From IMG/VR virus record IMGVR_UViG_3300032050_000182, positions 1 to 53,456 of that record: DNA of 53,456 bases; one strand, written 5' to 3'. Under the pieces are notes generated by a model. The model ran no database searches, was not told the DNA's origin, and was given only the letters and a program-made list of their open reading frames with translations. Positions 6,501 to 33,478 of the stretch are shown piece by piece. The stretch comes from a virus. Positions within the stretch are counted from its first letter, which is position 1. Each line of letters begins with the position of its first letter. Made by a program: the position numbers and the translations under genes.

Positions 6501-6794
6501 GACAAGGCCGACACGCTTCGTTCTCTTGAGAACACGGCTAAACTAACTGGTGATGTTGAGTCGCTACGCCGGTACTATGAGCGTTTTCCGAATGACAAGG
6601 CGATTATTTACATCTACAACAAGCAGAAAAATAATCGGCTGCGTAACCTTCAGGAAATACGTAATGCCGTGGATAGTAATAAGAATTACACGCCGAAGCA
6701 GAAGAAAGAAATCATCGATCAAATTGATCTGGAACGAAACTACATCAAGCGCGGCTTGATCGAAACCTTCCGACAGTACGGCGTGAATCCTTAA
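582..6794 (+). CDS. Giant polyvalent internal virion protein with zincin-like HExxH motif
   Basis: This 2070-residue protein opens with a short module (YEITGPDGKTYSIDGPEGAT) common at the start of large phage internal proteins. Residues ~100-290 are hydrophobic and Gly/Ala-rich, ~300-345 form a coiled coil, and ~348-412 could be a winged helix. An Ala/Gln/Glu low-complexity linker follows (~430-560). A zinc metallopeptidase-like HEAVH sits at 846-850 with a possible third ligand Glu at ~902. Residues ~1450-1700 resemble the LPD38-type 'large polyvalent protein associated' domain (NPAFYPYNFVRDA, later FFRPAATGA), followed by a hydrophobic helix at ~1724-1746. Known relatives are packaged in the capsid and ejected into the host. 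The gene directly follows another internal-protein gene and ends by overlapping a convergent gene by 4 bp. The protease activity is inference. Confidence 0.85.
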   Translation: MPTYEITGPDGKTYSIDGPEGATREQVIAAIRRRLGVQQAGSRQAGFVESFKEAATTLKAAPAAAKFAAADTPEEKAATRKALLEQAGGDEFDTTAFADIKDLPGALDWAKQVLGSSAGALAAPALAGVATGPIGGVAALGTQYTTSNLIRQAEEQERAIAEGRQAEETSVGKAIAGAGASTALDVVGFKFFQPLFKSFPLVGKLFGESGEKGAAEAGDKIKQAIENKSLTFKGGVARGIAEGVAFEVPQEIAQTAIERWQAGLSLTDSEAKSEYIEAGAGAVLLGGGLGGASGFVSTRNEKRRAEEALREKQLADEKAKREAAEAARAAAGEPVSAETAAEKLEPAKIDNTLLANAERVVREFGNEVKVSDHVNKLVDELGLSVKDAKKTLRELQKNKIISLKDGKFTVNAPEVDVLPYVGKEGETDLEEVVTDETAAQAQAAQQAQQEAAPTGAQAAETATAAGEPAAVEVGTAAPTEIATTEGVQPDESVAGIADVTAEPTDVGAGAGGVGVPPSGSVAAGSDLEGTETSGLGAATPAAERLDVGAEASQPALTKKAQAQAEVVQRKEQRKVALNELTVNLDNLTTLLPEDAEQDTVREIAALAKKLGAVYTQFERLPKNKTAALDKKESALDAQIVSIRNRINFLTDLVVEQGKPFKSKAELDAELKTNEAEAQRRAAREDAGGLSATEKAEPFNLQLEAQLRNGVNNAIDFISQDVDQSRSVLLAQPRKQVMQDVKRGKPALAEDITDTIVEAKPAIGGRRVEADEKRQIGIKVSEVLSGLTELLSRVSFQDSAVQIEGDANTDPNVFTRLRQDNRLAEYDPKTNTFYFTRDGLSSKVFLHEAVHAATVKILRAFETAPDSLTPSQRDGAEHMIKIYTEAKKKLGGRFRNEFENVYEFVSGVATDKKLQRELAKISRPNLAKYTKRVTTLWNQFTEALAKMFGIDSRKGTKGRILDENVLPPEVSGTSRLVPGDAGYQGNLLLEASQALQYIISAPEKGVDVAPLPARGRRGKGQRLVAPTQKMTLEEAIAADTVRYKKKYDKPSTVKKLANFFSGQDGYEWLARKFQNDRRPLVWLQEQLRRAGLLKYGGKDANNLYDLIALSSGKAFHNMTQYMQSHFDDVHKAIKDYANAKGIDVDTALIRLSRYLTARHEPERRHVKYLMNVPLNNTTKVRSAVLGVEGTPAMLREFILRELHKPQDLVSNGKAKQYRQVLEQLVQKYKDKDGVSTTKAKPGSMSLDENAPEYTVLGTLDKELIAETMRDFEADQANEATAASMKQLLDALEVIKENSKMLDREANYWSPPVDNIVNFYGYQYYVPFKGKPPKETDVSEGDERFEIGGPRLGGELSEAAQAAEGRISDSENVILQLLSDGTKSTMRAGRSGVTQAIKNLIQDGYIRGSKSPKVVKFEDRYKGFDPSELRGENKIFHHTPEGNIEVFTINDNVMRDAIRRAYQTPSPFIEFANKITSGIGHFHTRYNPAFYPYNFVRDALTNAFTMSSEMGPKAAFDYIGAVAVQVGKMGLVKTGRVAKMYAEGRVSEIEAMAKKDPDVANILEYLEEGGRTTYIQGLSLESQKEELAKSIGNQKYARTSEQINKWVDIWADSFEFTSRAAAYSVAKSNAMARGATEAEARQEAAAYAKNLANFEQVGEYGRTAGALFMFFRPAATGAVRAFDSMAPLFQNLEAAEARLPPGIRENPEAMAKFRENFIRQQDMARATVYGLLGAGATLYLMAYMASDDDELGRNKVETDDMALWTRNLRLPLGIIGKEGFLQLPWGFGLGAFGAAGAQVAGAAFGKTSMKDMAVNMTNVALDSFMPLPVSRIDPTENFPAWIVDSIVPSAARPFVEFAMNVDGLGREIYNNRATKYGEAYTGGKNVPELYKTMAQGMFEFTNGDIKVQPNTLYFWTNNYLDGISRIAHSAYGIGLTAAGDKDFDAKTDLVLFSSFVGRKSNYDGREFAQVEKKIEDKADTLRSLENTAKLTGDVESLRRYYERFPNDKAIIYIYNKQKNNRLRNLQEIRNAVDSNKNYTPKQKKEIIDQIDLERNYIKRGLIETFRQYGVNP

Positions 6795-6997
6795 GCGAGC
6801 CTCCACACCCGCACACCAATAAGCCCGTCCTTACTGGACGGGTATACCCTGACTTTAACTTTTGCTTTCTTAGCTGAAGTGTCTATTTTGTAGACCATCT
6901 CTGCTGGCTTGAGAGTAGGCACGAAGAAACTGTCCCCAATCTTCATGAAGTCGAAAGGGAACAGCCACTCCGGTTCCTCAATCCTTACGGAGTTCAT
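6791..6997 (-). CDS. Small conserved phage protein, 68 aa
   Basis: This short protein carries a motif typical of many phage genomes, FPFDFMKIGDSFFVPT, followed by a Lys/Val-rich beta-like segment. Its function is unknown. The start overlaps the last 20 nt of the upstream primase-helicase gene, and the stop overlaps the convergent 2070-residue gene by 4 bp, so it is the last gene of the leftward block. The conserved composition and tight packing support a real gene. Confidence 0.75.
   Translation of the reverse strand: MNSVRIEEPEWLFPFDFMKIGDSFFVPTLKPAEMVYKIDTSAKKAKVKVRVYPSSKDGLIGVRVWRLA
6824..6842. other. Strong inverted repeat near convergent gene ends
   Basis: CCCGTCC and GGACGGG form a perfect 7-bp stem around TTACT, about 30 nt past the stop of the plus-strand giant gene and inside the 3' part of the minus-strand small gene. 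There is no T-tract on either side, so it is not a canonical terminator. It could still pause or stabilise transcripts where the two transcription units meet. Confidence 0.35.
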
Positions 6998-9861: not shown

Positions 9862-10173
9862 TCAAACCTGACCTCCAACCATGTCTTCGATGTAGAGTTT
9901 CGCATCGATCATATTGGAAGCCGGAAGCCTACCAAACTCCATGTCTTTCTCTACAAGAGTCATGAAGGCTTCGACCATCTTGCGCTTCTCCTCACGGATA
10001 CCTTGGCCACGAAACCACGCATACACAGTCATGCGTGAGATCTTCAATGCTTTAGCCACGTACGTCGCAGGGAGATTGGCCTCGACACACAGCCTACCGA
10101 GTTTGACACCCAGACGAGTAGGGTCTGCGTCCTTCAGGCCGAGCAGAAATTCGTAACTGTATGAACGAGGCAT
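9862..10173 (-). CDS. Small HTH DNA-binding protein (XRE-like)
   Basis: This 103-residue protein contains a helix-turn-helix at about residues 36-56 (NLPATYVAKALKISRMTVYA), followed by WFRGQGIRE and a charged helix. Proteins beginning MPRSYSYEF with this HTH are common in phages and are taken to be regulators or replication accessory proteins; the target is unknown. The gene is 9 nt downstream of the candidate ssDNA-binding gene and ends just before a strong terminator, so it may regulate the replication genes. No partner operator was identified. Confidence 0.8.
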   Translation of the reverse strand: MPRSYSYEFLLGLKDADPTRLGVKLGRLCVEANLPATYVAKALKISRMTVYAWFRGQGIREEKRKMVEAFMTLVEKDMEFGRLPASNMIDAKLYIEDMVGGQV

Positions 10174-10182
10174 GGCTGCTCC

Positions 10183-11025
10183 TTACTTCTTCGCCCACTT
10201 CTTGACTACCTCTGCTGCATCAGCAGAAGCGGCTTCAGGCTTCTTGGGCGCAGCCTCACGCAACTTCGGTTCCTCGACTTGAGCAACTTCTGCCGGGGCA
10301 TCAGTCTCGTCGGCCTGATACACAGTCAGTTTGATCGCTGACTCAGCCGCTGCCGAATCACGCTGCTTGGTGATGGCCTCGTAGTCATCCTGCGGAACCG
10401 GAGCCACAGGCGAGAACAACAACTTCGGCACAGGCGACTTCGTGTCGAACTGCATCTTGGTGATCACACGACCTGCCGAGATATTGTTGTTAGCCAACAT
10501 CTGAATGTACGGACGGAACGGGAACTTGCCGCTCTCTTCCTTACCAAAGCACGACGTAGCCGGAAGCACCAACTGCATGACATCCCCTGCCGGATCATGC
10601 GGCAACACAACAGCCGTACGCCACGACAGACGGCAAGCAGCACCGCTGCCACCCTGACCAGAACCCTTCACAGAGAACTGACACTTGTCACAGGCCGAGG
10701 CTTGCGGAGTCTTAACTTCGGCATCGGGAGTCTTACCGTCAGATGACCAACAGGTAGGAGCCGACTTCTCGCCTTCTTTGTACGTGCCTGAGTAGTAAGT
10801 ACGCGCAGCGTTGTGCGCCATCTTCACAAAGATCACGTTCATGTGACGATCTTCAATCGCACCAACTTCCTTGCCACCGGCCATCTTGCGGAATACACCG
10901 CCCTTGATGGAGATGCGCTTAGATCCTGCACCGCCACCACCTGCAACGGCACGAGTATCCTCATCCAACCCTCCCTGAATCTGAGAGAGTTGGCTCTTCA
11001 AACTAGCAATAATATCGTTAGACAT
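10183..11025 (-). CDS. Conserved phage protein with Cys cluster, candidate ssDNA-binding protein
   Basis: This 280-residue protein has a Gly-rich N-terminal segment (~28-35), a central domain with a Cys set (Cys92, Cys112, Cys115, Cys131) suited to zinc binding, and an Ala/Glu/Lys/Pro-rich flexible tail ending KKWAKK. Similar proteins sit in phage replication clusters between helicase and primase genes, and a single-stranded DNA-binding role is plausible. No OB-fold can be shown by eye, and the tail is basic rather than acidic as in T7 gp2.5. Function is inferred mainly from neighbourhood. Confidence 0.75.
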   Translation of the reverse strand: MSNDIIASLKSQLSQIQGGLDEDTRAVAGGGGAGSKRISIKGGVFRKMAGGKEVGAIEDRHMNVIFVKMAHNAARTYYSGTYKEGEKSAPTCWSSDGKTPDAEVKTPQASACDKCQFSVKGSGQGGSGAACRLSWRTAVVLPHDPAGDVMQLVLPATSCFGKEESGKFPFRPYIQMLANNNISAGRVITKMQFDTKSPVPKLLFSPVAPVPQDDYEAITKQRDSAAAESAIKLTVYQADETDAPAEVAQVEEPKLREAAPKKPEAASADAAEVVKKWAKK

Positions 11026-11436: not shown

Positions 11437-13023
11437 TCACACCTCGTCTAATTCCTGTTTATACAAGTCCACAATCTTCTGGTGGCTATCCACCTTTCCT
11501 TGCAACATCGAATACATCTTTCTCTCAACGTCAGAACCTTGGAGATGCACCACAGTCATCTTGTTCTGTTGTCCCACTCGGTCGATTCGCCCAATACATT
11601 GCAGGTAGGTCTCGACTGACATCACCGGAGACCAGAACACAATCGTGTCTGCGGCAGTCAGCGTGATACCGTGCGATGCAGATTGAGGCTGAATCACTAG
11701 CACTCGCGGATCAGGAGCCGTCTGGAATTTATTGACGATCTCCGATCTACCTTGTGCGCTAACAGAGCCTTGAATAACTGCGGTTGATATCCCTTGCTTT
11801 CTCAAGTACGCCACGACTACATCAATAGTGTGGATGTACGGAACGAATATTACTACTTTGTTGGACGTTTCGTCTAGTACTTCTTGCAAAGCATTTAGGC
11901 GAGGGGAGACATCGAACTCCACAACGTCATGCTTGTCGGTGTAGACCGCACCGCCTGAAATCTGTAGCAACTTGTTGAGACTGGCTGCGGCATTGACCGC
12001 GCTGATTTGTTCACCCGCTGCTTCGATAAGAAGTTGTTGCCTCAACGCCTTGTAGTACTGAGCTACTTGTGTCGTGAGTGGAACATCGCGTGTCTGATAA
12101 GTAAGTTCTGGAAGATCCAGACAGTCTTTCTTGCAATGCCGCACGGCGGGTTGCAGCGCATTGAAGACCTCGACCTGTGCCGTAGGCTTCGGCAACCACT
12201 TAAACCGAGTGACCGGATACATCACCCTGTCACGCCACGCCGTCGTGAACTTCGGAACCCGGTACGGCGAAACAAGTTTAGCAATGCCAAACGCATCGAC
12301 CGGAGACTGCGAGGCCGGTGTGCCGGTCATCATCCACAGCCACGTGTGGGGCTGAATCAATTTGGCCAGAGTCTTCCAACGCCGAGTCGATGTGGCCTTG
12401 TATGCGTTCGCTTCGTCTACGATGATCAGGTCGTAGTTAGCCTCAAGCAGTTCTTTGAAGACGATATGTGTGCCGTCAAAGTTGATGATCGTGAAGTCGG
12501 CATTGTCATCGATTAGATTCTTGCGCTTGGTAGCCGAGCCGTGAGCGATGGCGCAGCGACGGTGCATTGCTGTCTTGAAGATGTCTGCTTGCCACGCCGA
12601 GTACATGATCGACAACGGGCAGATCACAAGTACCTTCTTGATAATGCCTTGGTTCATCAGGTAGTCAGCCGCCCAGATCGCCGCTGATGTCTTACCTGTA
12701 CCTGCCTCGTTGAAACAGAACGCACGGGGTCGGAGCGACAGGAACGATGCCGTATCCCGCTGATGTTCAAACGGTGTGTGGAATCCCGGCCATGCGTAAT
12801 CTCGCATAATGGGCGAGGGGATCTTTGGCAGCGACGGGTTGGGTTGTTCTAGATCAAAGATCGTTGCCAACTTCATCGCTTCTTGGTGTCCCCAGTACAC
12901 CAACAATTCTTTGTAATCCTCGTCCGACTTCAGGATCTCGCACTTCTCAATGCGTGAGTAGGCTTCATCCGCTATCTGCGGATTCACCTGAAACTGAAGT
13001 GCTGTGTTCTCAATTACTTGCAT
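11437..13023 (-). CDS. SNF2-type superfamily 2 helicase
   Basis: The 528-residue protein has the full SF2 motif set: Walker A EAGTGKT (Lys111), motif II DEAN (203-206), motif III TGTPA (233-237), and motif VI QCIGRIDRVGQ (Arg479, Arg482). The RIDRVGQ form is typical of SNF2-family translocases. It probably remodels or unwinds DNA during phage replication, recombination or repair. There are no extra nuclease domains. The upstream 227-bp gap contains inverted repeats and a weak terminator. The stop codon is embedded in the Shine-Dalgarno of the next gene. Confidence 0.9.
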   Translation of the reverse strand: MQVIENTALQFQVNPQIADEAYSRIEKCEILKSDEDYKELLVYWGHQEAMKLATIFDLEQPNPSLPKIPSPIMRDYAWPGFHTPFEHQRDTASFLSLRPRAFCFNEAGTGKTSAAIWAADYLMNQGIIKKVLVICPLSIMYSAWQADIFKTAMHRRCAIAHGSATKRKNLIDDNADFTIINFDGTHIVFKELLEANYDLIIVDEANAYKATSTRRWKTLAKLIQPHTWLWMMTGTPASQSPVDAFGIAKLVSPYRVPKFTTAWRDRVMYPVTRFKWLPKPTAQVEVFNALQPAVRHCKKDCLDLPELTYQTRDVPLTTQVAQYYKALRQQLLIEAAGEQISAVNAAASLNKLLQISGGAVYTDKHDVVEFDVSPRLNALQEVLDETSNKVVIFVPYIHTIDVVVAYLRKQGISTAVIQGSVSAQGRSEIVNKFQTAPDPRVLVIQPQSASHGITLTAADTIVFWSPVMSVETYLQCIGRIDRVGQQNKMTVVHLQGSDVERKMYSMLQGKVDSHQKIVDLYKQELDEV

Positions 13024-14630: not shown

Positions 14631-16487
14631 TTAACAGTCTCCGTAGGATTCACCACACTTTGCTTCACAGGCTACGGGTAATCCGATAGCCCAATCTGGT
14701 GGAGTAGACATTACTTTAGTTATGAACGCAAGTGCTTCATCTTGCTCACTTTTTGGAGCGACGATTACTGCTGCGTCATGCACGGTCAGTACTGGACGGT
14801 AGTGGTCTCTAATAGACAACATCTGTTCGCCAACAATAATTCTGGCTAGTGCCTGCACCACGTTCTCAACGACAGCCCCGCCCCAGATCGTGACCTTACC
14901 CTTGCGGGAGTCGTAGGTAGCCTTGCCATCCTCCTGCCTCAAGTTCGGATAATGAATGTACAAACCGTTCGGTAATTTGATACCTGCTGGGCCAACCTCA
15001 AGAACTTTGTGCTTACCCAAGTAATACGGACGGCGATCCCTAGACCAACCCATCATGTCGTCCAACGCACGATCCGAATCCCGCCAGAACTCTGTGATCT
15101 TGTCGTTCTCTTTCCGATACAGATCGACGATGCGCTTGCACTCTTCCTCGGCCAAATCCGCACCGGGTGGCTGCGTCTTCAACGTGTGCTGAAGTTTCTT
15201 TGCACCTGTGCCATACCCCAGACCTAGTATGCAGGTCTTTCCGACAAAGCGTTCAACGGGGTTTGCTTTGCTGATGGGCTGCTTATAGATCTTGCTGGCA
15301 AAGACGCTATAAACGTCGTCTCCTTTAGCAAACTGTTCAACCACATCTGTCTGTCCTGCCAACCACGCAAGCACACGGGCTTCGATCTGCGATGAGTCAC
15401 AGTTGATAACCACGTGATCCTTCGGAGCCATGACTGAGTTCTTCAAGGCTTTCTTTTTCTTGTCGCGGCTCGGCAGGTTCTGGAAGTTTACCGAATCGGC
15501 TCCTGCCCAACGCCCGGTGTGCGCCCCGTAATACTTCAACGGAATTGGAAGTAATCCTTTGTTCCTAGCGCCGATGCCGATGAATCTCTCCACGCGAGAC
15601 TCTTCGATGGTGGACTTCGTACCCAACCGGACAGCACACAACTGCTGAATGAACGGATCTTCGTGTTCCGATAACGCGATAAACCCCTCGTCGTTCTTGG
15701 CAAGAGCGTATGTCTCCTTGCCTGTCGTGGGGGATATCTTCAGAGGAACCGTAATCCCGCTGTCTTCCAAAACGGCAGCAAACTGTTTGTTGCTTGCGAG
15801 TTTCTTCCGCACTTCCTCTTCGTTGCCTACCTCAAGAGTATCCATGAGGCCACGCAACAACGTGGACTTCTCCTGTCGGATCTCATCCAAGCGTTCAACC
15901 AACAACGCATCATCCACCCGCAGTACCGGCATCGTGTACATGCGGATCGTCATGTCGATCAGGTCGAGTTCGCTTTGAGGGAATCTCTCAATAAGCCTAT
16001 TAAAAAGATTATAGGTAAGATCAACATCGTTGCGGCAATAACCAGCATACCGATCAAGATCTCCACTATTAAAATCCAACCTCTTCTTACCCAACGCATT
16101 GACTACCTCCGTCCCTTTCTCTCCAAGTTCGTATCTTTTGACAAGCGCAGATAATGATCCACCTGCATCTACACCATGTAATGCTCTCGCTATACACAAC
16201 GTATCAAAGTAGTAAGCTGGCACGATCCCGAAAATGAATGACAGGATGCCGCCATCAAACTGCGTGTTGTGGCACAGGAGCGCAGACGTATTCCAGTCCA
16301 CCTGATTCAGCCACGCCTTGATCTCCTCGTGCGTACCGCTGAACCATTGTGTCTCGTCCTCGTCAATCTTCATCGCAACGCCGATCACCTCAAATCTCGG
16401 GTCGCGGATGTATTCTTCAGTTGTTAGCCTCTTCAGACTGAACTGCTGATCGTAATAAGTCTCAAAGTCCAACGTCACGAAACTCAT
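14631..16487 (-). CDS. polA: DNA polymerase, family A, with 3'-5' exonuclease
   Basis: The 618-residue replicative polymerase has a DnaQ-like exonuclease domain: Exo I DFE (Asp7, Glu9), Exo II N-x3-D (Asn74, Asp78), and Exo III Y-x3-D (Tyr150, Asp154). The polymerase domain shows motif A DSSQIEAR (Asp364, Glu369, Arg371), motif B R-x3-K-x7-YG (Arg413, Lys417, Tyr425) and motif C TVHDAAV (His570, Asp571). The usual Glu of the HDE motif C is Ala572, a variation that leaves the catalytic Asp in place. The size is that of short T7-like phage polymerases. It is surrounded by helicase, nuclease and primase genes. Confidence 0.95.
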   Translation of the reverse strand: MSFVTLDFETYYDQQFSLKRLTTEEYIRDPRFEVIGVAMKIDEDETQWFSGTHEEIKAWLNQVDWNTSALLCHNTQFDGGILSFIFGIVPAYYFDTLCIARALHGVDAGGSLSALVKRYELGEKGTEVVNALGKKRLDFNSGDLDRYAGYCRNDVDLTYNLFNRLIERFPQSELDLIDMTIRMYTMPVLRVDDALLVERLDEIRQEKSTLLRGLMDTLEVGNEEEVRKKLASNKQFAAVLEDSGITVPLKISPTTGKETYALAKNDEGFIALSEHEDPFIQQLCAVRLGTKSTIEESRVERFIGIGARNKGLLPIPLKYYGAHTGRWAGADSVNFQNLPSRDKKKKALKNSVMAPKDHVVINCDSSQIEARVLAWLAGQTDVVEQFAKGDDVYSVFASKIYKQPISKANPVERFVGKTCILGLGYGTGAKKLQHTLKTQPPGADLAEEECKRIVDLYRKENDKITEFWRDSDRALDDMMGWSRDRRPYYLGKHKVLEVGPAGIKLPNGLYIHYPNLRQEDGKATYDSRKGKVTIWGGAVVENVVQALARIIVGEQMLSIRDHYRPVLTVHDAAVIVAPKSEQDEALAFITKVMSTPPDWAIGLPVACEAKCGESYGDC

Positions 16488-21119: not shown

Positions 21120-21772
21120 GTCATCTCCTGTCGGACGAATTCGATCCTGCTATATGGAATCAGGATCGCGGTTTTGTTTACGTTCCGTGGATAGATCAAC
21201 GTGGTGTTGCTCCGCTCCAGAAGCAACGCATTAGCCACACCCTTCTCGGTTCCCTCAAAGTCATCAAGCACAAAGACAGTATCGCTATACTTCTCTGTGC
21301 TTACCTCGCGCAGATCGTCCTTGGTCAGACGCCCGTCTAGATACACTAGATCAGGCGTAATACCTTTCAGCCTCATCTTTTCAAACATCACATAGGACGG
21401 TGTTAACGGGTATTGATTGATCAGCGGAAGCACTATCTTGATGTCATTGGAGAAGTCGCACGTATGAATGTCTACCTCACCCTTACAAGCCTCGTAGATA
21501 ACATGGGTAGACACGCCGATAAACGTGCCCACCTCTGCTACGACTCGTGGTTTGAAGTAATTGATGATGGTGTAGAGATCATACGCATCGTTGTACGCAA
21601 GAGATCCGGTGTTGTAGTTAGCCTCCACCCGCATCCGGTTCTGGTTGTAGATAATGCTTTCAATCTTCTCGTGTGGGTTGTCTTCATCTACAACTAACTT
21701 CTCATCCATGATCTCCCAGACAATCCTGCTGAATCGATCACGCCCGATCTGTAGGTTGGTGTTCGGGATCAT
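21116..21772 (-). CDS. Class I methyltransferase-like protein (Methyltransf_24 type)
   Basis: This 218-residue protein has motif I VVAEVGTFIGVSTHVI, then HTCDF, a PDLVYLDGRL motif and VFVLDDFEGTEKG, matching the Methyltransf_24 family of SAM-dependent enzymes acting on sugars or small molecules. The substrate is unknown. It overlaps the alpha-CTD-like gene by 4 nt and the 38-aa gene by 4 nt, so it is co-translated with the alpha-CTD-like gene. Confidence 0.78.
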   Translation of the reverse strand: MIPNTNLQIGRDRFSRIVWEIMDEKLVVDEDNPHEKIESIIYNQNRMRVEANYNTGSLAYNDAYDLYTIINYFKPRVVAEVGTFIGVSTHVIYEACKGEVDIHTCDFSNDIKIVLPLINQYPLTPSYVMFEKMRLKGITPDLVYLDGRLTKDDLREVSTEKYSDTVFVLDDFEGTEKGVANALLLERSNTTLIYPRNVNKTAILIPYSRIEFVRQEMT

Positions 21773-22221
21773 TTCTCCCCCTCCTTGAGCAAACGATGTA
21801 GTTGCTCAATAAGTTTTGCATATTCAAGTGACTTCACCGGATCATCAACCTCACAGTTAATCACAAGACGATGCGCGGCAATCCGCATAGCCTTGATCAG
21901 TTTTTCTCTTGTGATCGGAACGATATGTTCATCGGGACTAGCAACGTCAAGATCGCTCGGTGGCCAATTCTCCAACTTCATATTAAATTTCAAACCGACC
22001 TGCACCAAAGATTTTTCCAACTCTTCGATTGACTTCCTACCCAAGTTGGGTATGCAGAGAAGTTCCCATCTTTGTTTTTGGACAAGTTCGCCAATCGTGT
22101 TTATCCCACCGGCTTTCAAACAATGACTCAAACGAACTGTTAGCCAAAGTTCATCAACAGGTGCGGTAAATATGTTTGTATACCTTGATAGGATATCTTT
22201 CTTTAAGTCGTACTCGCTCAT
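21769..22221 (-). CDS. RNA polymerase alpha-CTD-like protein
   Basis: Residues ~20-88 closely match the C-terminal domain of bacterial RNA polymerase alpha: PVDELWLTVR, CLKAGGINTIGELVQ, PNLGRKSIEEL and MKLENWPP. Positions equivalent to E. coli DNA contacts are kept: Arg265 (Arg30), Cys269 (Cys34), Gly296 (Gly61), Lys298 (Lys63), Ser299 (Ser64) and Glu302 (Glu67). Asn268 is replaced by His33. The alpha assembly domain is absent. The C-terminal ~60 residues are a separate helical extension. It could bind UP elements or host activators and redirect or block host transcription. It is coupled by ATGA overlaps to DUF3310 and methyltransferase genes. Confidence 0.88.
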   Translation of the reverse strand: MSEYDLKKDILSRYTNIFTAPVDELWLTVRLSHCLKAGGINTIGELVQKQRWELLCIPNLGRKSIEELEKSLVQVGLKFNMKLENWPPSDLDVASPDEHIVPITREKLIKAMRIAAHRLVINCEVDDPVKSLEYAKLIEQLHRLLKEGEK

Positions 22222-24738: not shown

Positions 24739-25944
24739 TCACACCTCCATCTTCACAAGCCGACCACTCGGCGGGGTAAAGTCACGAGCCATCGTCACCA
24801 TCCACAGCGTCGGGATGTTCGTCTGCCATCTGATGTTGTCCTCAACGTATCCGTCCGTGAACACAACCAAGCACTCGGCGTTGGAGTTCTCGCTGCATAA
24901 CAGTTCACTCACAGATGAAACCCTAGTTCCACCACCACCCTCGGGCTTCAGCATCGTTGCCAGTCCGTCGTAGTTGTCGCTGAATACTTGCTCACCTCGT
25001 ACCTGATGATCCCACCAGATCACTCGCACCCGATCAGGTGACGCCATGTCGCAGATCGATATCATCTCGGTCGCAAACTCAGTCAACTCACGGCTGCCGA
25101 TACTGCCGGACGTATCGATGGCGATGATGATCTCGCTCACCTTCTCCGCTTCCAGAGTTGGCAAGTAAACATCATCAACCATGCGACGACGATTCATCTT
25201 GCGCCACGTGTACTCATCTCGCCCCTTCGTGGTGGATGACACAAACTCACGCAACTCGTCACGCCACGATACCTTTGGTGTCATCAAGTCTTGGATGACG
25301 CGCGGTACTTTGACGCCAAACTTCCCGGCCAACATCGCACCCTGTTGGATAGCCTCGCTGATCTCGTCGGACAACTTCCGTACATCCTCAACGCTCGCAC
25401 CGGCCAACGCTTCCGCATCATGCTCGTCGAGAGGCTGCATCTCCTCGGGGTTCTTCCCGCTGCCTGTACCTTGTCCACCTTGTCCGTTACCTTTCTTCTT
25501 GCGCTTGTCCATCTCTGCCTTGAGATCGTTGTACACCTCACGCACCGACCAGTTGTGGTACTTGGCATCGTACAGCCCACCTTTCGGCAACTTGACCAGA
25601 TCAGGAGCCTTCTTGCCGATCTCTGTGATGATGTCATTGATCACAAAGTCCATCGCCACGTTAGCGAGTCGCGGGTTCTCCTTCACCAAGTCCATGTGAC
25701 GAGGGATGTGCTTCAAGAACACGTGACCATTCTCGTGCAGCACCAACGCAGATTGCTCGGGCAACGTCAAAGATTGAAAGAACTCACGACCATACCGTTT
25801 GTTCTTGCCATCCGTGTACGCTGTCGGGATGCCGTCTTCGATGGTCGATTCACCCATCAACATGATCCCACCGTACAAACAAGTCTCGGGGTGGCGCATC
25901 AGTCGGATGTGTGCCTTCTTCAATGCTGTGTTTGCGTCAGTCAT
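24739..25944 (-). CDS. VWA-domain protein with HExxH metallopeptidase-like N-terminus
   Basis: The 401-residue protein starts with a DUF2201-like metallopeptidase-type region: HENGH at 70-74, then His79, giving HExxHxxxxH. A Gly/Lys-rich linker (~148-163) follows. The C-terminal half is a von Willebrand A domain with MIDAS AIDTSGS (Asp277, Ser279, Ser281) and a later FTDG. Such proteins work with MoxR-like AAA ATPases, here encoded just upstream, to remodel or process a protein target. Its ATG overlaps the 59-residue gene (ATGA). The target is unknown. Confidence 0.88.
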   Translation of the reverse strand: MTDANTALKKAHIRLMRHPETCLYGGIMLMGESTIEDGIPTAYTDGKNKRYGREFFQSLTLPEQSALVLHENGHVFLKHIPRHMDLVKENPRLANVAMDFVINDIITEIGKKAPDLVKLPKGGLYDAKYHNWSVREVYNDLKAEMDKRKKKGNGQGGQGTGSGKNPEEMQPLDEHDAEALAGASVEDVRKLSDEISEAIQQGAMLAGKFGVKVPRVIQDLMTPKVSWRDELREFVSSTTKGRDEYTWRKMNRRRMVDDVYLPTLEAEKVSEIIIAIDTSGSIGSRELTEFATEMISICDMASPDRVRVIWWDHQVRGEQVFSDNYDGLATMLKPEGGGGTRVSSVSELLCSENSNAECLVVFTDGYVEDNIRWQTNIPTLWMVTMARDFTPPSGRLVKMEV

Positions 25945-26120
25945 AACGTCACTTCCTCTTGCTTGACGACGATTGTGTAACCCAACTCTTTGATCAGAGA
26001 TAATTCTGTACGAGTGAATGTCCTACGATGTGCGAGTCTTGCCAACAACGCAGCCTTCACGCACTCGGGATAGAACCGCTCTGTCCCATACTGTTCTCGA
26101 CGAGTGATCACGATCTCCAT
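25941..26120 (-). CDS. Small protein between MoxR and VWA genes, 59 aa
   Basis: It has GGAGGTGTGAC just before ATG, ends by an ATGA overlap with the VWA gene, and encodes MEIVITRREQYGTERF plus a Cys and an Arg-rich helix (LARLAHRRTFTRTE). It resembles a small alpha/beta adaptor, but no family is recognised. The coupling to the VWA gene suggests it works with the ATPase-VWA pair. Confidence 0.65.
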   Translation of the reverse strand: MEIVITRREQYGTERFYPECVKAALLARLAHRRTFTRTELSLIKELGYTIVVKQEEVTL

Positions 26121-26132
26121 GTCACACCTCCG

Positions 26133-27218
26133 TCAGATCAACAACTCATAGTTGCTCTTTGCCCACTCGCTCACCTGTGAGTTCAGTCTTGCGATACGGC
26201 TCGTGCGCTTGCTCTGCAACAGCATCGTGAAGAACACGGCTTGCACCTCGGACGATCTCACGCGATTGACGAACCGCATGAACTTGCTCAAGTCATCTTG
26301 TGTTTCGATCACATCGATGGCGTTGAACATCGTCATGAACAACGCAGCCGGTCGCTCGGGTATCTCCACGTTGTCGGGATCAGCCAAGATTTGTTTGACC
26401 GATACCAACTCTTTCTCTAGTGCCAAGAACGCAGCCATTGATTCAGCCGCAGCCACGCCAATCGTACCGGCCAAGGATGAGTGAGTCAGTTTCGATCCGA
26501 TCAGATCACGCTTGCGAACAATCGGATCAGCCTTGGCGAGACTACGTGGTGAGACGAATGACAGGATGCGATTACCCGGCTTGAAGATGAACGGATTATC
26601 TTCCTGCCCACCGTCAAGGTACGACGCGAGACAACGAGGATTCATCGCCACCCATGCACGAATGACAGCAGAGATGCCATTGTCCGTTGCCCACGTGTTC
26701 CACATTTTCTCGTTCGACTTGCTGACGTTGATGATCGTCACGCGATTGCCGCCGTGTGCGAGGATCGCATCACCCACACCGTCAGAGAAGTTATTAGTTG
26801 TTGCGAACACCATTGAACCATCGGGGAGTTCCTCGTCACCCAACACGTGATCCAACACGAGACGCATCGCCATCTTCTGCATCATCTTGTCGCACTTGCC
26901 GATCTCGTCGAGCATGATGATCTTCGGCTTGCGTGACTTCATCTTGAAGATAGATGACGGATAGAACTCCAACTCACCTGTCTCCCGATTCGGAGCGCGG
27001 ATGAACAAGTCACCCAAGTCCGTGTTGGAGAAGTCCACGTAGATGTGGTCGTACTTGTCGGCGGGAAAGTCTATGTCTGACTTCAGCCGTGAGTGAAGTG
27101 ATGATTTGCCGATACCCGGCTCGCCAACGAACAAGAACGTGTTGCTCGTGCCGAGAGTCTTGACCAACGTATACGCCTCGTCGATGGTGACGGGGTTAGC
27201 GAACAGATTGATAGCCAT
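26133..27218 (-). CDS. MoxR-like AAA+ ATPase
   Basis: The 361-residue AAA+ protein has Walker A GEPGIGKSS (Lys38), Walker B IIMLDE (Asp104/Glu105), sensor ATTNN (~142) and a helical C-terminal lid region. It pairs with the VWA/HExxH protein downstream, as MoxR/RavA-type ATPases do with VWA partners. It likely uses ATP to load or remodel a metal-containing or assembly substrate. It has TAGGAG upstream. A DUF3150-like gene lies just upstream. Confidence 0.9.
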   Translation of the reverse strand: MAINLFANPVTIDEAYTLVKTLGTSNTFLFVGEPGIGKSSLHSRLKSDIDFPADKYDHIYVDFSNTDLGDLFIRAPNRETGELEFYPSSIFKMKSRKPKIIMLDEIGKCDKMMQKMAMRLVLDHVLGDEELPDGSMVFATTNNFSDGVGDAILAHGGNRVTIINVSKSNEKMWNTWATDNGISAVIRAWVAMNPRCLASYLDGGQEDNPFIFKPGNRILSFVSPRSLAKADPIVRKRDLIGSKLTHSSLAGTIGVAAAESMAAFLALEKELVSVKQILADPDNVEIPERPAALFMTMFNAIDVIETQDDLSKFMRFVNRVRSSEVQAVFFTMLLQSKRTSRIARLNSQVSEWAKSNYELLI

Positions 27219-27270
27219 TACACTTTTCTCCTAATGGTTTACTAAATCAAACGTATAAATTCTGGAGGAT

Positions 27271-27286
27271 TGAAATCATCATTTCA
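27271..27286. repeat. Short palindrome between DUF3150-like and MoxR genes
   Basis: TGAAAT-CATC-ATTTCA is a 6-bp perfect inverted repeat with a 4-nt loop in the short intergenic gap. In the minus-strand transcript it spans an ATGATG preceded by GGAGACTGAA, which could start an 11-codon peptide. It could also be a weak operator or RNA stem. Confidence 0.35.
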
Positions 27287-27292
27287 GTCTCC

Positions 27293-28216
27293 TCACACAC
27301 CAAACTTGCTCAAGATATCGTCCACACTTTCCTTGACCACAACACGCTTGGTGTCGCTGTCTCTCAACTGATCAATCGTCACACCTTCTAATGCCCGCAG
27401 CAGAGAGACACGTGCTTCTTCTAATGCAGAATCTTGTGACACGTTGAACTCTGCGAATGTGTTGCACAACTCAATAGCCCGTTGCAGGGTGGTGTCGTAC
27501 AGTTTCCGTCGCTTGATCTTGATCTCCCCGTTCTCGACGACGGTCTCGGTCTCGCAACAATGCGAGAGAGACTTCATCACCTCGACTAGTTGCTCCTTCT
27601 GCCTGTTGATGATGCCGTCCACCAAGTCACGAGCCTGTCGCTCGTAGTGAACCTGTAAATCAGACGCCAACTCGTTGGCAATCTTGCAACGGAAATCCCC
27701 AAGCGGAACCTCGCTTGTGTACAGACGGATGGAGAACTTGCTGAATACTTCATTAACTGACGGGTAGTCCTCCCGCCTGAACATATCTCCCTGTGCCACG
27801 AACGCCATGTTCGACACGATTGTGGGGTATGCCTTGATGAAGTCAGCCACGAGTCCGTTGAACGTAGTCTCGTGCTGTCCAAACTCCTTCATAAACCGAG
27901 GGAGTTCCACGGAAGGTAGTATGCGTTGAGATCCCGCCCAGTCGTACGTGCGTCGCTGCATCCAGTTATAAACTGTCTGGCGATAGTTCAGCACCCGCTT
28001 GTGTTCCAAGTTCTTGGCGAGCAAGTGCTTCACAAACTTACCCGCATCGCTGTCGGCTTTCTTGGCTTGCGTCACCTCCTCGCTGATTTGTTTATCCTGC
28101 ATCGTTGCCGTCCACACTCGGGTGTCTACGTCCACCAACACGCACGACGATGCGAGCGAGACGATGTGTTCCGGCTTCTTCAAGAATGTTTCGTTCGTTC
28201 CGTTTGCTACGTCCAT
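27293..28216 (-). CDS. DUF3150-like protein of the MoxR-VWA module
   Basis: The 307-residue protein resembles the phage/ICE family found next to MoxR and VWA genes (DUF3150-like): N-terminal SSCVLVDVDTRVWT, then AGKFVKHLLA, and a long helical C-terminus. The family has no established function but is co-inherited with the ATPase-VWA pair. ATG at 28216 with GGAG 8 nt upstream is preferred over GTG at 28219. A sigma-70 promoter at 28293-28321 reads into it. Confidence 0.72.
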   Translation of the reverse strand: MDVANGTNETFLKKPEHIVSLASSCVLVDVDTRVWTATMQDKQISEEVTQAKKADSDAGKFVKHLLAKNLEHKRVLNYRQTVYNWMQRRTYDWAGSQRILPSVELPRFMKEFGQHETTFNGLVADFIKAYPTIVSNMAFVAQGDMFRREDYPSVNEVFSKFSIRLYTSEVPLGDFRCKIANELASDLQVHYERQARDLVDGIINRQKEQLVEVMKSLSHCCETETVVENGEIKIKRRKLYDTTLQRAIELCNTFAEFNVSQDSALEEARVSLLRALEGVTIDQLRDSDTKRVVVKESVDDILSKFGV

Positions 28217-28230
28217 CACTTATCTCCTAG

Positions 28231-28246
28231 TTCATGTCCAAGTGAA
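28231..28246. promoter_or_regulatory. 16-bp palindromic element, copy 1
   Basis: TTCATGTCCAAGTGAA has TTCA/TGAA arms. It lies ~47 bp downstream of the -10 box of the leftward promoter, between promoter and DUF3150-like gene. Near-identical copies occur at 29490 and 30038 and a related palindrome at 31163, so it is probably an operator or RNA leader element. Confidence 0.5.
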
Positions 28247-28292
28247 TCGTTAGTTAGTCCAGTTGCTTACTCATCCCTACGTCTATGTTCAT

Positions 28293-28321
28293 AGTATAGG
28301 ATAAGTTTACATATAAAGCAA
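28293..28321 (-). promoter_or_regulatory. Sigma-70 promoter for DUF3150-MoxR-VWA operon
   Basis: On the minus strand, TTGCTT (-35) and TATACT (-10) are separated by 17 nt. The transcript would run through a 6-codon frame (28254-28274), the 16-bp element and into the DUF3150-like gene. Confidence 0.7.
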
Positions 28322-28353
28322 GAGTTTGGGTAAAAAAGTCCCGAGAAAGTAAA

Positions 28354-28503
28354 TCAGAAGGCTCCCTCTGTTACTTCCCACGCACTTTGCCACCCCCCAT
28401 TACTCTGCACTTTTTCGAGCAACTCTTTCCGCTCCATGTATTCAAGTTCTAACTCACGCTGATATGCAGCCGCTTCGATGGCGGCCATCTCTTCATCTTC
28501 CAT
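28354..28503 (-). CDS. Small acidic helical protein, 49 aa
   Basis: Encodes MEDEEMAAIEAAAYQRELEL and a Trp-containing tail (GGWQSAWEV). It overlaps the upstream 68-residue gene by 11 nt. It has a weak AGAAAGA Shine-Dalgarno, so translation is likely coupled. Function is unknown; it is the last gene before the 28.3 kb promoter. Confidence 0.55.
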   Translation of the reverse strand: MEDEEMAAIEAAAYQRELELEYMERKELLEKVQSNGGWQSAWEVTEGAF

Positions 28504-28699
28504 CGATCTTTCTCTCAAGAATTACTCGCAGCATTGCCTTCTTGATATGCAGCGGTACGGGTGTTCTGAACCCGTCCAGAAAAGTCTCACGTGGCAAAAA
28601 TACATACTGATCTGGACTGTCTTTGCCCACCGAATACCGCAACGCCGACTCTGGCAGCGTGAACGGCATCGGATCTTTTGCGCTGTTGATCTTCTTCAT
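28493..28699 (-). CDS. Small hypothetical protein, 68 aa
   Basis: Contains MPFTLPESALRYSVGKDSPD and RVILERKIDG; no family is recognised. Initiation uses the recurring GAGGTGTGAG-ATG junction with the stop of the 51-residue gene inside the Shine-Dalgarno spacer. It overlaps the next gene. Confidence 0.65.
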   Translation of the reverse strand: MKKINSAKDPMPFTLPESALRYSVGKDSPDQYVFLPRETFLDGFRTPVPLHIKKAMLRVILERKIDGR

Positions 28700-28700
28700 C

Positions 28701-29494: not shown

Positions 29495-29505
29495 GTCGAA
29501 GTGAA
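29490..29505. promoter_or_regulatory. 16-bp palindromic element, copy 2
   Basis: TTCATGTCGAAGTGAA differs from copy 1 at one base. It covers the start codon of the 133-residue gene and lies ~48 bp downstream of the -10 box, the same distance as copy 1. Confidence 0.5.
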
Positions 29506-29508
29506 GTC

Positions 29509-29544
29509 CTATTTAATGTGTTGTGTTAGTTGTTCATCGGTCAT
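29509..29544 (-). CDS. Candidate 11-codon leader peptide
   Basis: ATG at 29544 would be within about 2 nt of the start of the transcript from the consensus promoter, so it could be translated without a leader. It encodes MTDEQLTQHIK and ends just before the GGACTTCAC segment that precedes the 133-residue gene. It is speculative and based on position only. Confidence 0.25.
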   Translation of the reverse strand: MTDEQLTQHIK

Positions 29545-29552
29545 GAGCCCAT

Positions 29553-29581
29553 ATTATAAGGCTTCTTTACGTTTATGTCAA
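29553..29581 (-). promoter_or_regulatory. Perfect-consensus sigma-70 promoter
   Basis: On the minus strand TTGACA, a 17-nt spacer and TATAAT give a full 12/12 match. It drives the 133-residue gene and the leftward block. It borders the TGTTCCA box array. Confidence 0.92.
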
Positions 29582-29635
29582 GACTTTGGATAAAAAAGAT
29601 ATCTAGCCACGTGTGGCCGCACGACGGACAAAATC

Positions 29636-29987
29636 TGTTCCATCTGTTCCAAGTTGTTCCAGATTTTGAACTTATACAATGCTACAAAAGGAGGGGGGTG
29701 GAGGGTAAGTAAGTTCTTGTTTTTATTAATATTTATTAGTAGTAGTAGTAGATGTTCAATCTGTTCCATGAAAAATGAGGTATACAAATGATTTGATGAT
29801 TTTTTGTGTGGGGGTTGACGCATCGCGGTGCAGACTTCCCCGACTTGGTTTTTACCCCCCTCCCCCTGCCCTACCTCGAAAAACGTGGAACATTGGAACA
29901 GATTTACACTATTCCTTTGCAAAACAATGACTTACCGATTTTGAACTTGGAACAAAACTTGGAACAAGTGTGGAACAACGTGGAACA
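29636..29987. repeat. Iteron-like array of TGTTCCA/TGGAACA boxes, candidate origin
   Basis: TGTTCCA occurs at 29636, 29645, 29655 and 29762 (with TGTTCAA at 29753). The inverse TGGAACA occurs at 29886, 29894, 29948, 29960, 29971 and 29981. Most spacings are 8-12 bp, about one helical turn. The two orientations face each other around an AT-rich centre flanked by a 10-bp G/C inverted repeat. This is the expected layout of a replication origin with initiator iterons, or of a centromere-like site. Ten exact 7-mers in 350 bp are far above chance. Confidence 0.7.
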
Positions 29988-30037
29988 GACCATCATTTTA
30001 TGACGTTATAAAACGATGCGGGACTTTGTGGGTTCAA

Positions 30038-30053
30038 TTCACTTGGAGGTGAA
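30038..30053. promoter_or_regulatory. 16-bp palindromic element, copy 3
   Basis: TTCACTTGGAGGTGAA has perfect TTCAC/GTGAA arms. Its flank matches copy 2 closely (22 of 28 positions on the minus strand) but has no start codon and no promoter at the usual distance. It may be a spare operator or relic leader. Confidence 0.4.
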
Positions 30054-30082
30054 GTCTTATTTAGTGGAACCCCTCTCGCTTA

Positions 30083-30099
30083 ATGGCTTAACTAGCCAT
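30083..30099. repeat. Perfect 6-bp palindrome with 5-nt spacer
   Basis: ATGGCT-TAACT-AGCCAT lies between the box array and the terminator of the 62-residue gene. It has operator-like geometry. No gene is attached to it. Confidence 0.35.
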
Positions 30100-30177
30100 G
30101 CCTCTCCCCGCGCAGCCACGCACACGCGACACGCGCGCACAAACAAGGAACTGGTTTCTTATGCGAAACGCAGGCAC

Positions 30178-30210
30178 AAAAAAACCCCGGCAACCTTGCG
30201 GCTACCGGGG
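30178..30210 (-). terminator. Rho-independent terminator
   Basis: On the minus strand CCCCGG...CCGGGG with an inner CC-GCAA-GG tetraloop is followed by seven T residues. It lies just past the 62-residue gene stop and would end transcription before the box array. Its core repeats at 30430. Confidence 0.88.
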
Positions 30211-30218
30211 CGCGTCGT

Positions 30219-30407: not shown

Positions 30408-30428
30408 AAGAACCTCTTAAATGAAGAG

Positions 30429-30454
30429 ACCCGGTAACCTTGCGGCTACCGGGT
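30429..30454 (-). repeat. Hairpin with GCAA tetraloop, second copy of terminator core
   Basis: ACCCGGTA/TACCGGGT arms plus G-U and CC/GG pairs form an 11-bp stem around GCAA. There is no T-tract after it on the minus strand. Its 24-nt core matches the 30186-30209 terminator core with one change, so it is a duplicated element. It may act as an attenuator or processing stem between the two genes. Confidence 0.65.
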
Positions 30455-30462
30455 CGAGTGGG

Positions 30463-31180: not shown

Positions 31181-31387
31181 GCTACATAGCCTGACCCCAC
31201 CCGCCCGCCGCCCCCCGCTGTGCAGTTGGGACTCCGCCGCGCCCCCCATACCCCTGAATACACACAAACAATGCCCACTTTTTCCACACTTGGCTGACCC
31301 CACCCCCCTTCATATAGAAAACCCCCCCGTCATCAATTTGGTACCATGCCATTCTCTTTTATATATTTTGTTGTACTATCCACGCAC
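31181..31387. other. C-tract-rich intergenic region upstream of terminase, candidate packaging/control site
   Basis: The plus strand holds several C-tracts of 4-8 bases (G-tracts on the minus strand) and a 12-bp direct repeat CTGACCCCACCC at 31191 and 31294. A weak rightward promoter (TTGGTA, 16 nt, TATATA, 31338-31365) precedes the TerS-like gene. The spot next to the terminase genes fits a packaging start site. No coding frame is credible. Confidence 0.5.
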
Positions 31388-31957
31388 ATGGATGCACAGC
31401 CGCTAGTCCCGGACATCGAAGACAACATCCCGCTTCCCGCTCATGCTCGGGAAGCCCTACCTGAGTTGTCTGCGCCCGAAGAGATCGAGATGCGGGCAAG
31501 GACAATTAAGTTGATCTCGGATCTCACGCTGACTCCGCTTGAGCCAACGGAAGCAGATGCCGATGCTGCCAAGGAATTGGCACGCGAGATGGTCGAGAAC
31601 CCGCAGGCGAAGCCCGACTTCAGTATCTATCCGAACGAAGTGATTGCTTTGTATGCCGGTATCGCTGCCCGATACAACCACATGATCGTCAAAGAGCTAT
31701 CTGACCTGAAGCTCTACGTGGTTAATAAGTTGTTTGAATCAGTGGAACAGGCCGATGACCTCAAAACTCGGGTCACAGCCCTCAAAGCATTAGGCGAAGT
31801 CGAGGGAATTGATGCGTTTAAGAAGCGCAGCGAGGTCACGCACATCATTAAGCCCATCGAAGAGGTGGAGCGAGAGCTAATGAGCGTGCTGGAGGGGATT
31901 GAGTACAAGGTTTTGGACAGCGGGGACGAGAAGAAAGCCCTGCCAAACCTAGAATAA
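31388..31957 (+). CDS. Terminase small-subunit-like protein
   Basis: A 189-residue acidic, helical protein placed directly before the large terminase. It has KELSDLKLYVVNKLFESV, RVTALKALGEVEGIDAFKKR and a C-terminal IEEVERELMSVLEGIEYKVL as in phage proteins assigned as TerS from position. It would recognise packaging DNA and hand it to TerL. Neither ATG (31388) nor an upstream ATG (31346) has a Shine-Dalgarno; 31388 fits the conserved part better. The assignment is mostly by synteny. Confidence 0.7.
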   Translation: MDAQPLVPDIEDNIPLPAHAREALPELSAPEEIEMRARTIKLISDLTLTPLEPTEADADAAKELAREMVENPQAKPDFSIYPNEVIALYAGIAARYNHMIVKELSDLKLYVVNKLFESVEQADDLKTRVTALKALGEVEGIDAFKKRSEVTHIIKPIEEVERELMSVLEGIEYKVLDSGDEKKALPNLE

Positions 31958-31969
31958 ACATAAAAAACC

Positions 31970-33478
31970 GTGCAACTGACCCAAGAAAACCTCGCCAAAC
32001 TGCGTCAAGCCTTGCCGACTCTGCCGGATAAGGAGAAACGGCGCGTTGCCGACCTCCTGAAGCAGTATCAGAACCAAATTACGCAGAAACTAGGCAAGGA
32101 TTCGTTCCTAGATTTCATTCATCACGTGTATCCGGGGTACAAAGTAGGCCCACATCACCGGAAATTGGCAAAAATCTTCGAAGACATAGCCGAAGGCAAG
32201 AAGAAGAGAGTGATCGTTAACATTGCCCCGCGACATGGTAAGTCTGAGATGATTTCTTACCTTGCTCCGGCGTGGTTTCTAGGCAAATTTCCGCAGAAGA
32301 AGGTCATCATGGCCTCACACACCGCAGATCTTGCGGTAAATTTTGGTCGTCGGGTGCGTAACTTAGTGGGAGCAGAGAATTACCGTGACATCTTCCCCAA
32401 CGTCTCTCTCCAAGCTGACTCTAAAAGTGCTTCTCGCTGGGGTACGAACTTTAATGGTGAGTATTTTGCTATTGGTGTTGGCGGTGCCTTGGCTGGTCGG
32501 GGTGCTGATCTATTCATTATTGATGATCCTCATTCTGAACAAGAGGCCAAGCAAGGAAGGGCTGATGTATTTGAGCCTGCTTGGGAATGGTTCCAATCGG
32601 GCCCCGTCCAACGACTGATGCCGGGCGGCGCGATCATCGTGGTGATGACGCGATGGTCGAAGATGGATCTGACGGGGAAGATCGTCGATCACATGACCCG
32701 CGAAGAGGGTGCAGATCAGTGGGAAGTAGTCGAGTTTCCCGCCATCCTCAACGAGAAACCGCTTTGGCCTGAGTTCTGGGATATCGACGAGTTGCTGGCT
32801 AAAAAGGCCAGTATGGATGTGCGGTATTGGCAAGCCCAGTACATGCAGCAGCCGACCTCGGAAGAAGGTGCACTCCTCAAGCGGGAGTGGTGGCAGGTAT
32901 GGGAGGGAGATAATCCGCCCCCGTGCGAGCACATCATCATGAGCCTCGACGCAGCCCAAGAGAAATCAAACCGGTCGGACTTCAACGCCCTCACAACGTG
33001 GGGTGTTTTCTTTAATGAAGAGACAAAAAACTACAACATAATCCTGCTCAACTCCATCAAGCAGCGACTTGAATTCCCTGAGTTAAAGGCGATGGTGCTG
33101 GAGGAGTACAAGGAGTGGAACCCGGACACGTTCATCGTGGAGAAGAAGTCCAACGGTGCGGCGCTGTATCAGGAGTTCCGCCGGATGGGTGTGCCCATCA
33201 GTGAGTTCACGCCGGGTAAGGGTCAGGACAAGATCAGCCGGGTCAATGCGGTGTCAGACTTGTTTTCTTCAGGTATAGTCTGGTGTACTGACCATAGGTG
33301 GGCCAGAGAAGTAGTCGAGGAGTGTAACGACTTCCCGAGCGGTACACACGACGACTTGGTGGACTCTACTACTCTCGCCCTCCTGCGCTTCAGGCAGGGT
33401 GGGTTTATTCGACTTCCGTCAGACGAGCCGGAACCAACAAAGTGGTTCAAGAGCCATCGGCGCGAAGGCTACTACTAG
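31970..33478 (+). CDS. terL: Terminase large subunit
   Basis: The 502-residue packaging motor and nuclease has Walker A APRHGKS (Lys91), Walker B LFIIDD (Asp185/Asp186) and a coupling MTRWS motif. The RNase H-like nuclease domain shows Asp327 (SLDAAQ), Glu391 (IVEKKSNG), and Asp461/Asp462 with Asp465 (THDDLVDS). It cuts concatemers and drives DNA into the prohead with TerS and portal. Translation starts at GTG; an in-frame stop at 31961 blocks an earlier start and no Shine-Dalgarno is visible. Confidence 0.97.
   Translation: MQLTQENLAKLRQALPTLPDKEKRRVADLLKQYQNQITQKLGKDSFLDFIHHVYPGYKVGPHHRKLAKIFEDIAEGKKKRVIVNIAPRHGKSEMISYLAPAWFLGKFPQKKVIMASHTADLAVNFGRRVRNLVGAENYRDIFPNVSLQADSKSASRWGTNFNGEYFAIGVGGALAGRGADLFIIDDPHSEQEAKQGRADVFEPAWEWFQSGPVQRLMPGGAIIVVMTRWSKMDLTGKIVDHMTREEGADQWEVVEFPAILNEKPLWPEFWDIDELLAKKASMDVRYWQAQYMQQPTSEEGALLKREWWQVWEGDNPPPCEHIIMSLDAAQEKSNRSDFNALTTWGVFFNEETKNYNIILLNSIKQRLEFPELKAMVLEEYKEWNPDTFIVEKKSNGAALYQEFRRMGVPISEFTPGKGQDKISRVNAVSDLFSSGIVWCTDHRWAREVVEECNDFPSGTHDDLVDSTTLALLRFRQGGFIRLPSDEPEPTKWFKSHRREGYY

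Follow-up and report, generated by a model that had tools for sequence, protein, structure and literature searches.

A mirrored array of short boxes is very probably the replication origin of an uncultured aquatic phage

Related origin systems

To our knowledge, few phage origins have been mapped, and mostly not in uncultured phages. In P4-type replication, the alpha protein initiates at short repeats (ori and crr), and in RSF1010 the iterons are bound by RepC, with RepA as the helicase and RepB' as the primase. The P4 alpha protein is a single primase-helicase fusion (PMC7145576), and SaPI Rep recognises its origin iterons through its C-terminal domain (PMC7581432). For the mechanism, iteron plasmids were used as a comparison (PMC5043065), along with the basal unwinding system of bacterial oriC, which consists of DnaA boxes, DnaA-trios and AT-rich DNA (PMC6669920, PMC8287927).

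The window analysed here is a whole virus record of 53,456 bases from an uncultured aquatic phage, and its positions 29636-29987 carry an array of TGTTCCA boxes that, judged from the sequence, is very probably the phage's replication origin, of the iteron type and fired by a primase-helicase/HTH module. The locus is similar to the replicons of SaPIBov1 Rep and SCCmec Cch, with a DUF927 helicase that ends in a C-terminal winged helix and a short-iteron origin. Unlike in SaPI/SCC, however, a PrimPol domain is fused N-terminally to the helicase, the phage has its own family-A polymerase, the origin shows two mirrored arms, IHF-like sites and a triplet/AT element, and it is located not directly downstream of the helicase gene but ~20 kb away, in the window as in its relatives. 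As in oriC, a double-strand box pair is found beside TAG/TAA triplets that run 5' into the boxes, followed by AT-rich DNA, and a second box cluster lies at helical phase. In contrast to oriC, the boxes are not DnaA boxes, and clear triplets, with at least three repeats, were seen in just 9 of the 48 arms examined (8 with the polarity of DnaA-trios and 1 reversed). DnaA boxes (TTATNCACA) are not enriched, with one near-match at 29585 and an overall count below chance, which led us to reject the array as a set of DnaA boxes; no DnaA gene was found.

The phased iterons, AT-rich unwinding element and IHF/NAP sites of RK2, R6K gamma and pSC101 have their counterparts here, although the iterons of such plasmids are direct repeats of 17-22 bp, compared with 7-mers in two facing arms in the phage. 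There is also a likeness to the oriV of RSF1010, a plasmid with a separate iteron binder, helicase and primase; unlike in these plasmids, no plasmid Rep family was found here, and PrimPol and helicase are fused. P4 shares the combination of one primase-helicase fusion with short repeats, but we take it to differ in its box, in its helicase (D5 by Pfam, versus DUF927) and in having two distant sites instead of a single array. The parts are of known kinds. We did not find their combination (mirrored 7-mer arms, 8-bp pairs, IHF-like sites, trio-like triplets and a PrimPol-Cch/Rep-like fusion) in the open-licence literature searched, where no description of the motif in phages turned up either. 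Such an origin grammar, made up of a triplet/AT melting zone, IHF-like sites and facing 8-bp box pairs in helical register, works from sequence alone, can place origins in many uncultured aquatic contigs, and ties them to a helicase-primase family known from staphylococcal islands.

Anatomy and conservation of the array

The first-pass annotation had described ten exact boxes and a degenerate one, mostly spaced by 8-12 bp and rare by chance, and all of this was borne out. A scan of both strands over the 352 bp of 29636-29987 gave ten exact TGTTCCA/TGGAACA boxes against 0.051 expected (Poisson P ~3e-20), with start-to-start steps of 8-12 bp within the clusters. The whole window holds 19 exact copies on both strands versus 7.8 in dinucleotide shuffles, none of 100 shuffles reaching 19. 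As in an iteron-type origin, many short candidate initiator boxes, beyond chance, are thus gathered in a non-coding gap.

The left arm (+ strand) is composed of an outer cluster at 29636-29661, with TGTTCCA at 29636, 29645 and 29655 (three phased boxes that are kept in relatives), and of an inner pair at 29753-29768, with a degenerate TGTTCAA at 29753 and TGTTCCA at 29762. This inner pair is intact in most relatives, with a step of 8 bp, whereas one of its boxes is degenerate in the window. In the right arm (- strand), the inner pair at 29886-29900 has TGGAACA at 29886 and 29894, again with an 8-bp step, and the outer cluster at 29948-29987 has TGGAACA at 29948, 29960, 29971 and 29981, with a phasing of 10-12 bp. 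The length of the central spacer between the inner pairs (29769-29885) is phased by helical turns across relatives. The array is centred at ~29812 and not at 29777, the centre of a perfect 10-bp G-run inverted repeat (GGAGGGGGGT/ACCCCCCTCC, 29690-29699 / 29854-29863) that had been described as symmetrically placed. That repeat is real, but relatives do not keep it: it is eroded in the near ones L002 and L005 and missing from L018/L023, and we discarded it as a core element.

Two IHF-like sites had escaped the first reading, one in the left arm (29710-29722, - strand, AAACAAGAACTTA) and one in the right arm (29922-29934, + strand, AAACAATGACTTA). Each shows one mismatch to WATCAANNNNTTR and neither arm of the window has an exact site, while the left-arm position carries the exact consensus in many relatives. 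Across 24 arrays the sites nearly always point in the same outward direction, and the exact consensus gives 16 matches in 12 of the 24 arrays versus 1.3 expected. The TAG repeats noticed earlier between the box sets correspond to (TAG)5 at 29737-29751 (+ strand). This tract leads into the inner pair from its 5' side and has DnaA-trio polarity, the boxes being on the 3' side of the 5'-TAG-3' strand. In a nearest-neighbour profile of all 53 kb, no 60-mer is less stable than the putative DNA unwinding element at 29706-29765, which agrees with the AT-rich unwinding element of an iteron-type origin, and the 50-mer, 60-mer and 100-mer minima of the window all start at 29705-29706, within the array. 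In 11 of the 12 phages that bear the replication module, the 60-mer with the lowest stability in the available sequence (some relatives being fragments of 40-54 kb) falls within the array; these are the window, G001, G043, G044, G058, G059, G020, G014, G028, G009 and phage Rollin (W05). The sole exception is G002, in which five overlapping 60-mers elsewhere are less stable. In W01-W04, W06, G053 and G047, all of which are without the module, this pattern is not seen.

The same boxes were recovered at the same gap in close and remote relatives. In the close ones (L001-L005, L026, L029 and L030), 10-13 boxes follow one another as in the window, and the remote ones (L018, L020, L021 and L023, whose neighbouring gene is 35-37% identical) show 13. 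The array is conserved, together with its position and orientation, from 90% down to ~30% protein identity. In IMG/VR, the tight pair TGTTCCANTGTTCCA was found in at least 120 stretches, and at least 54 of these pack a minimum of four boxes into 600 bp. Those with genes in common with the window have the array where the window has it, flanked by the terminase and leftward blocks. When TGTTCYA is counted, at least 43 arrays have facing inner pairs, at least 24 of them non-redundant, in a contig sample partly gathered via the array or via the primase. The consensus anatomy consists of outer boxes with 8-12 bp steps, an IHF-like site, an inner pair with a step of exactly 8 bp, a centre, and the mirrored arm. 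The centre measures 111-146 bp between the inner pairs, with the far pair on the other strand, and YTA triplets and AT-rich DNA are found in one of the two arms. The distances between inner pairs cluster at ~121 and ~132 bp, one helical turn apart, and the helical phasing has a Rayleigh p of 2e-4 at 10.5 bp, uncorrected for phylogeny.

Two other genomes, G053 (L228-L230) and G047 (L231-L232), have TGTTCCA clusters without facing pairs, primase-helicase or melting minimum. The TGTTCCA 7-mer alone is therefore not diagnostic, and these two cases contradict the idea that every such cluster is the same element. Their clusters are positioned at ~41314 and ~35291, respectively. At the DNA level, the gap sequence had no match among annotated phages, and the TGTTCCA pair is absent in six related isolates.

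The replication module and the candidate box readers

The putative initiator helicase-primase is a 938-aa protein encoded at 6978-9794 (- strand). Its N-terminal PrimPol matches 6zp9 and RepB' (3h20), and its helicase is a DUF927-type, MCM-like one as in the SaPI/SCC (Cch-Rep) replicon, with matches to 5dgk (Cch) and 8tch (SaPIBov1 Rep). The NCBIfam Cch1 score is well under the cut-off, indicating a related protein and not an equivalog. A C-terminal winged helix is predicted, with 5dgk and 8tch as best matches; the model of the C-terminus (pLDDT 83) is better than the full-length one, which is of moderate quality (mean pLDDT 70). Directly upstream are a 103-aa HTH protein (9862-10173, - strand), which is kept in nearly all the phages with this module and has weak Pfam HTH matches, and, in the same operon, a conserved 280-aa protein (10183-11025, - strand), which every window-type array phage has, as does Rollin.

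The primase-helicase is encoded by the full-anatomy array contigs above 34 kb (G001, G002, G043, G044, G055, G058, G059 and G076), and in seven array contigs of that size with the gene set of the window it is 34-88% identical to the 938-aa protein. It is also present in G075 and G091, which are smaller or mixed-box (TGTTCYA) contigs. G081 (35.7 kb) has facing pairs and no primase-helicase on the contig, which may be a fragment. Five phages of the TerL/portal/capsid lineage of the window, at 42-53% identity (W01-W04 and W06: DSL-LC04, HTVC027P, 023Pt_psg01, MinM2 and HTVC023P), have neither the primase-helicase nor the array. The array is co-inherited with the genes for replication and not with the structural module. 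Also, these five phages have a structural module in common with the window and a largely different replication module, which implies wholesale module exchange.

The opposite combination is seen in Pseudomonas phage Rollin (OR577172, W05/L251), whose structural module differs from that of the window but which encodes the primase-helicase (26% identity) and homologues of the genes at 10183, 11437, 14631 and 22639. Eight TATGCAA boxes lie at positions 250-690 of the Rollin record, its melting minimum, together with an exact IHF site and an AT tract rich in triplets. We predict that this array is the origin of a culturable phage, and Rollin would thus bring the origin design into a Pseudomonas host where it can be tested. 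Several AAAAGGTAGYAANTTRCTACCTTTT hairpins are interleaved with the TATGCAA array in positions 1-700 of the record. In G028 the layout is identical to that of the window but the boxes are TGTTCTA, implying one trans-acting reader, and in G009 the boxes are mixed. Together with the co-inheritance and with Rollin, these variants form the pattern expected of a single trans-acting reader, and the natural boxes TGTTCCA, TGTTCTA and TATGCAA could be used to work out which protein reads them.

The first-pass annotation had named an unidentified small protein or the primase-helicase as the possible initiator, and the same two candidates survive. The C-terminal winged helix of the helicase has about an even chance of being the sequence-specific binder, and the 103-aa HTH protein is a tentative candidate for that role. 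When HTH and winged-helix sequences were compared, no residue separated the TGTTCCA phages from the TGTTCTA phages, and reading a box code from either domain was given up.

The small HTH protein, either rival or partner of the helicase, would in an alternative account of the same origin read the boxes and recruit the PrimPol-helicase as in RSF1010. This account, which we regard as possible but rather doubtful, is consistent with the position of its gene, which in nearly every window-type genome directly precedes that of the primase-helicase and encodes a helix that hardly varies (SRMTVYAWFRG), with the similarity of the PrimPol half to RepB' and with Rollin, where a different box goes together with an unrelated small gene at the HTH position. 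However, G002 (TGTTCCA) and G076 (TGTTCTA) share nearly the same HTH helix despite their different boxes, G059 retains TGTTCCA with a small HTH gene that is not detectably homologous, and the SaPI-type helicase itself binds (PMC7581432).

For the iteron-type origin, conservation at the gap, the melting minimum and co-inheritance with the replication module all support the earlier suggestion of iterons with an unwinding element. By analogy with SaPI/SCC, iteron plasmids and oriC, we infer how binding, IHF action, triplet capture, loading and direction could follow one another. The phage initiator would bind the TGTTCCA boxes, as two tight 8-bp pairs and outer phased clusters, with the inner pairs on matching helix faces across a centre of 111-146 bp, and a host IHF-type bending protein would fold each arm. 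The complex would then open the AT-rich stretch beside the inner pair of one arm, where the YTA/TAR triplets may be captured single-stranded. The PrimPol-DUF927 helicase could self-load, in line with a proposal made for the helicases of SCCmec (Cch) and SaPI (Rep), and prime synthesis by the phage family-A polymerase, and replication would probably be bidirectional, towards a terminus near 7 kb. Taken as a whole, origin and mechanism are in our view highly likely to be the best explanation of the locus. A more specific proposal is speculative and on balance unlikely: the origin would be a DnaA-independent counterpart of basal unwinding, in which an initiator unrelated to DnaA, either the AAA+ PrimPol-helicase or its HTH partner, is directed by the box pair to TAG/TAA triplets in single-stranded form, these having DnaA-trio polarity. 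If true, box pair, triplets and AT-rich DNA would be a convergent answer to origin opening.

Genomic setting and other readings

The array lies in a gap of 724 bp (29495-30218), with a terminator-like hairpin on one side of it and a leftward sigma70 promoter on the other. It had been called the only large gap of the leftward block; it is indeed the largest, but there is another of ~480 bp at 28220-28700. A structured RNA was considered and dropped, as Rfam gave no match. The hairpin (30184-30211, - strand) resembles an intrinsic terminator and closes the upstream leftward unit. A near-identical one is located at 30428-30455 (a 30-bp stretch is 90% identical), and the two bracket a leftward ORF of 62 aa. 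The leftward genes, from 31.1 to 7.0 kb, contain the replication genes, including a SNF2-type helicase (11437-13023), a PD-(D/E)XK nuclease and the family-A polymerase (14631-16487). The rightward genes start with a probable small terminase gene, terS (31346-31957), and continue with TerL (31970-33478), portal and capsid genes. The cumulative GC skew of the window has its minimum at 31.5 kb, near the array, and its maximum at 6.7 kb, but its effect is mixed with that of gene direction, which changes at ~31.1 kb. The skew turn is found 0.6-4 kb from the array in 9 of 10 genomes (G028 being covered only in part); since skew tracks gene direction, it is weak evidence alone.

The promoter, missed in the first reading, is a perfect TTGACA-17-TATAAT (29553-29581, - strand) that reads left into the early/replication block. 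It is only ~55 bp outside the array and is kept in close relatives, and the boxes could on this ground be repressor or activator operators that govern it. We consider a purely regulatory array improbable, given two mirrored arms that extend over 350 bp, boxes that are upstream of the promoter and not over it, a genome melting minimum, triplets and IHF-like sites inside the array, and co-inheritance with replication and not regulatory genes. A dual use, as origin and in promoter control, is possible.

A cos/pac site for the small terminase is a still poorer explanation and very improbable. The array is 1.4 kb upstream of terS and terL, and in lambda cosB repeated R sites are combined with an IHF site. 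However, the array does not track the terminase genes among relatives: it is missing from the five phages of the same structural lineage, Rollin has an analogous array while sharing the replication module only, and in G059 the array is present and no homologue of the 31346 gene is detectable. Packaging also has no need of a melting minimum. Finally, the centromere put forward as an alternative in the first-pass annotation is hardly credible and was rejected, since, even though TGTTCCA is identical to the initial seven letters of a parS half-site (which we take to be TGTTYCACG), there is no 16-bp palindrome at ≤3 mismatches anywhere in the window, neighbouring boxes are in tandem at 8-12 bp with a facing 9-bp geometry only once among all arrays examined, box position 6 is C/T, CG does not follow 3' of the box, and no ParB motif or ParA/ParB family was found among the genes scanned.

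Some other genes deserve mention. At 24739-28219 (- strand) are encoded a 308-aa protein with a distant DUF3150 match, a MoxR-like AAA+ ATPase and a metallopeptidase/VWA (DUF2201) protein. These genes adjoin the origin in most relatives, but G014 is without all three and keeps the array, and their products were excluded as box binders. A 150-aa protein (21769-22221, - strand) has the C-terminal domain of the RNA polymerase alpha subunit (PF03118, E 2.5e-17) and is possibly a factor for transcription take-over or an activator. A 2070-aa protein with LPD38, a large polyvalent protein domain, is encoded at 582-6794 (+ strand); it has no PHROG match and is kept in all window-type relatives with the array.
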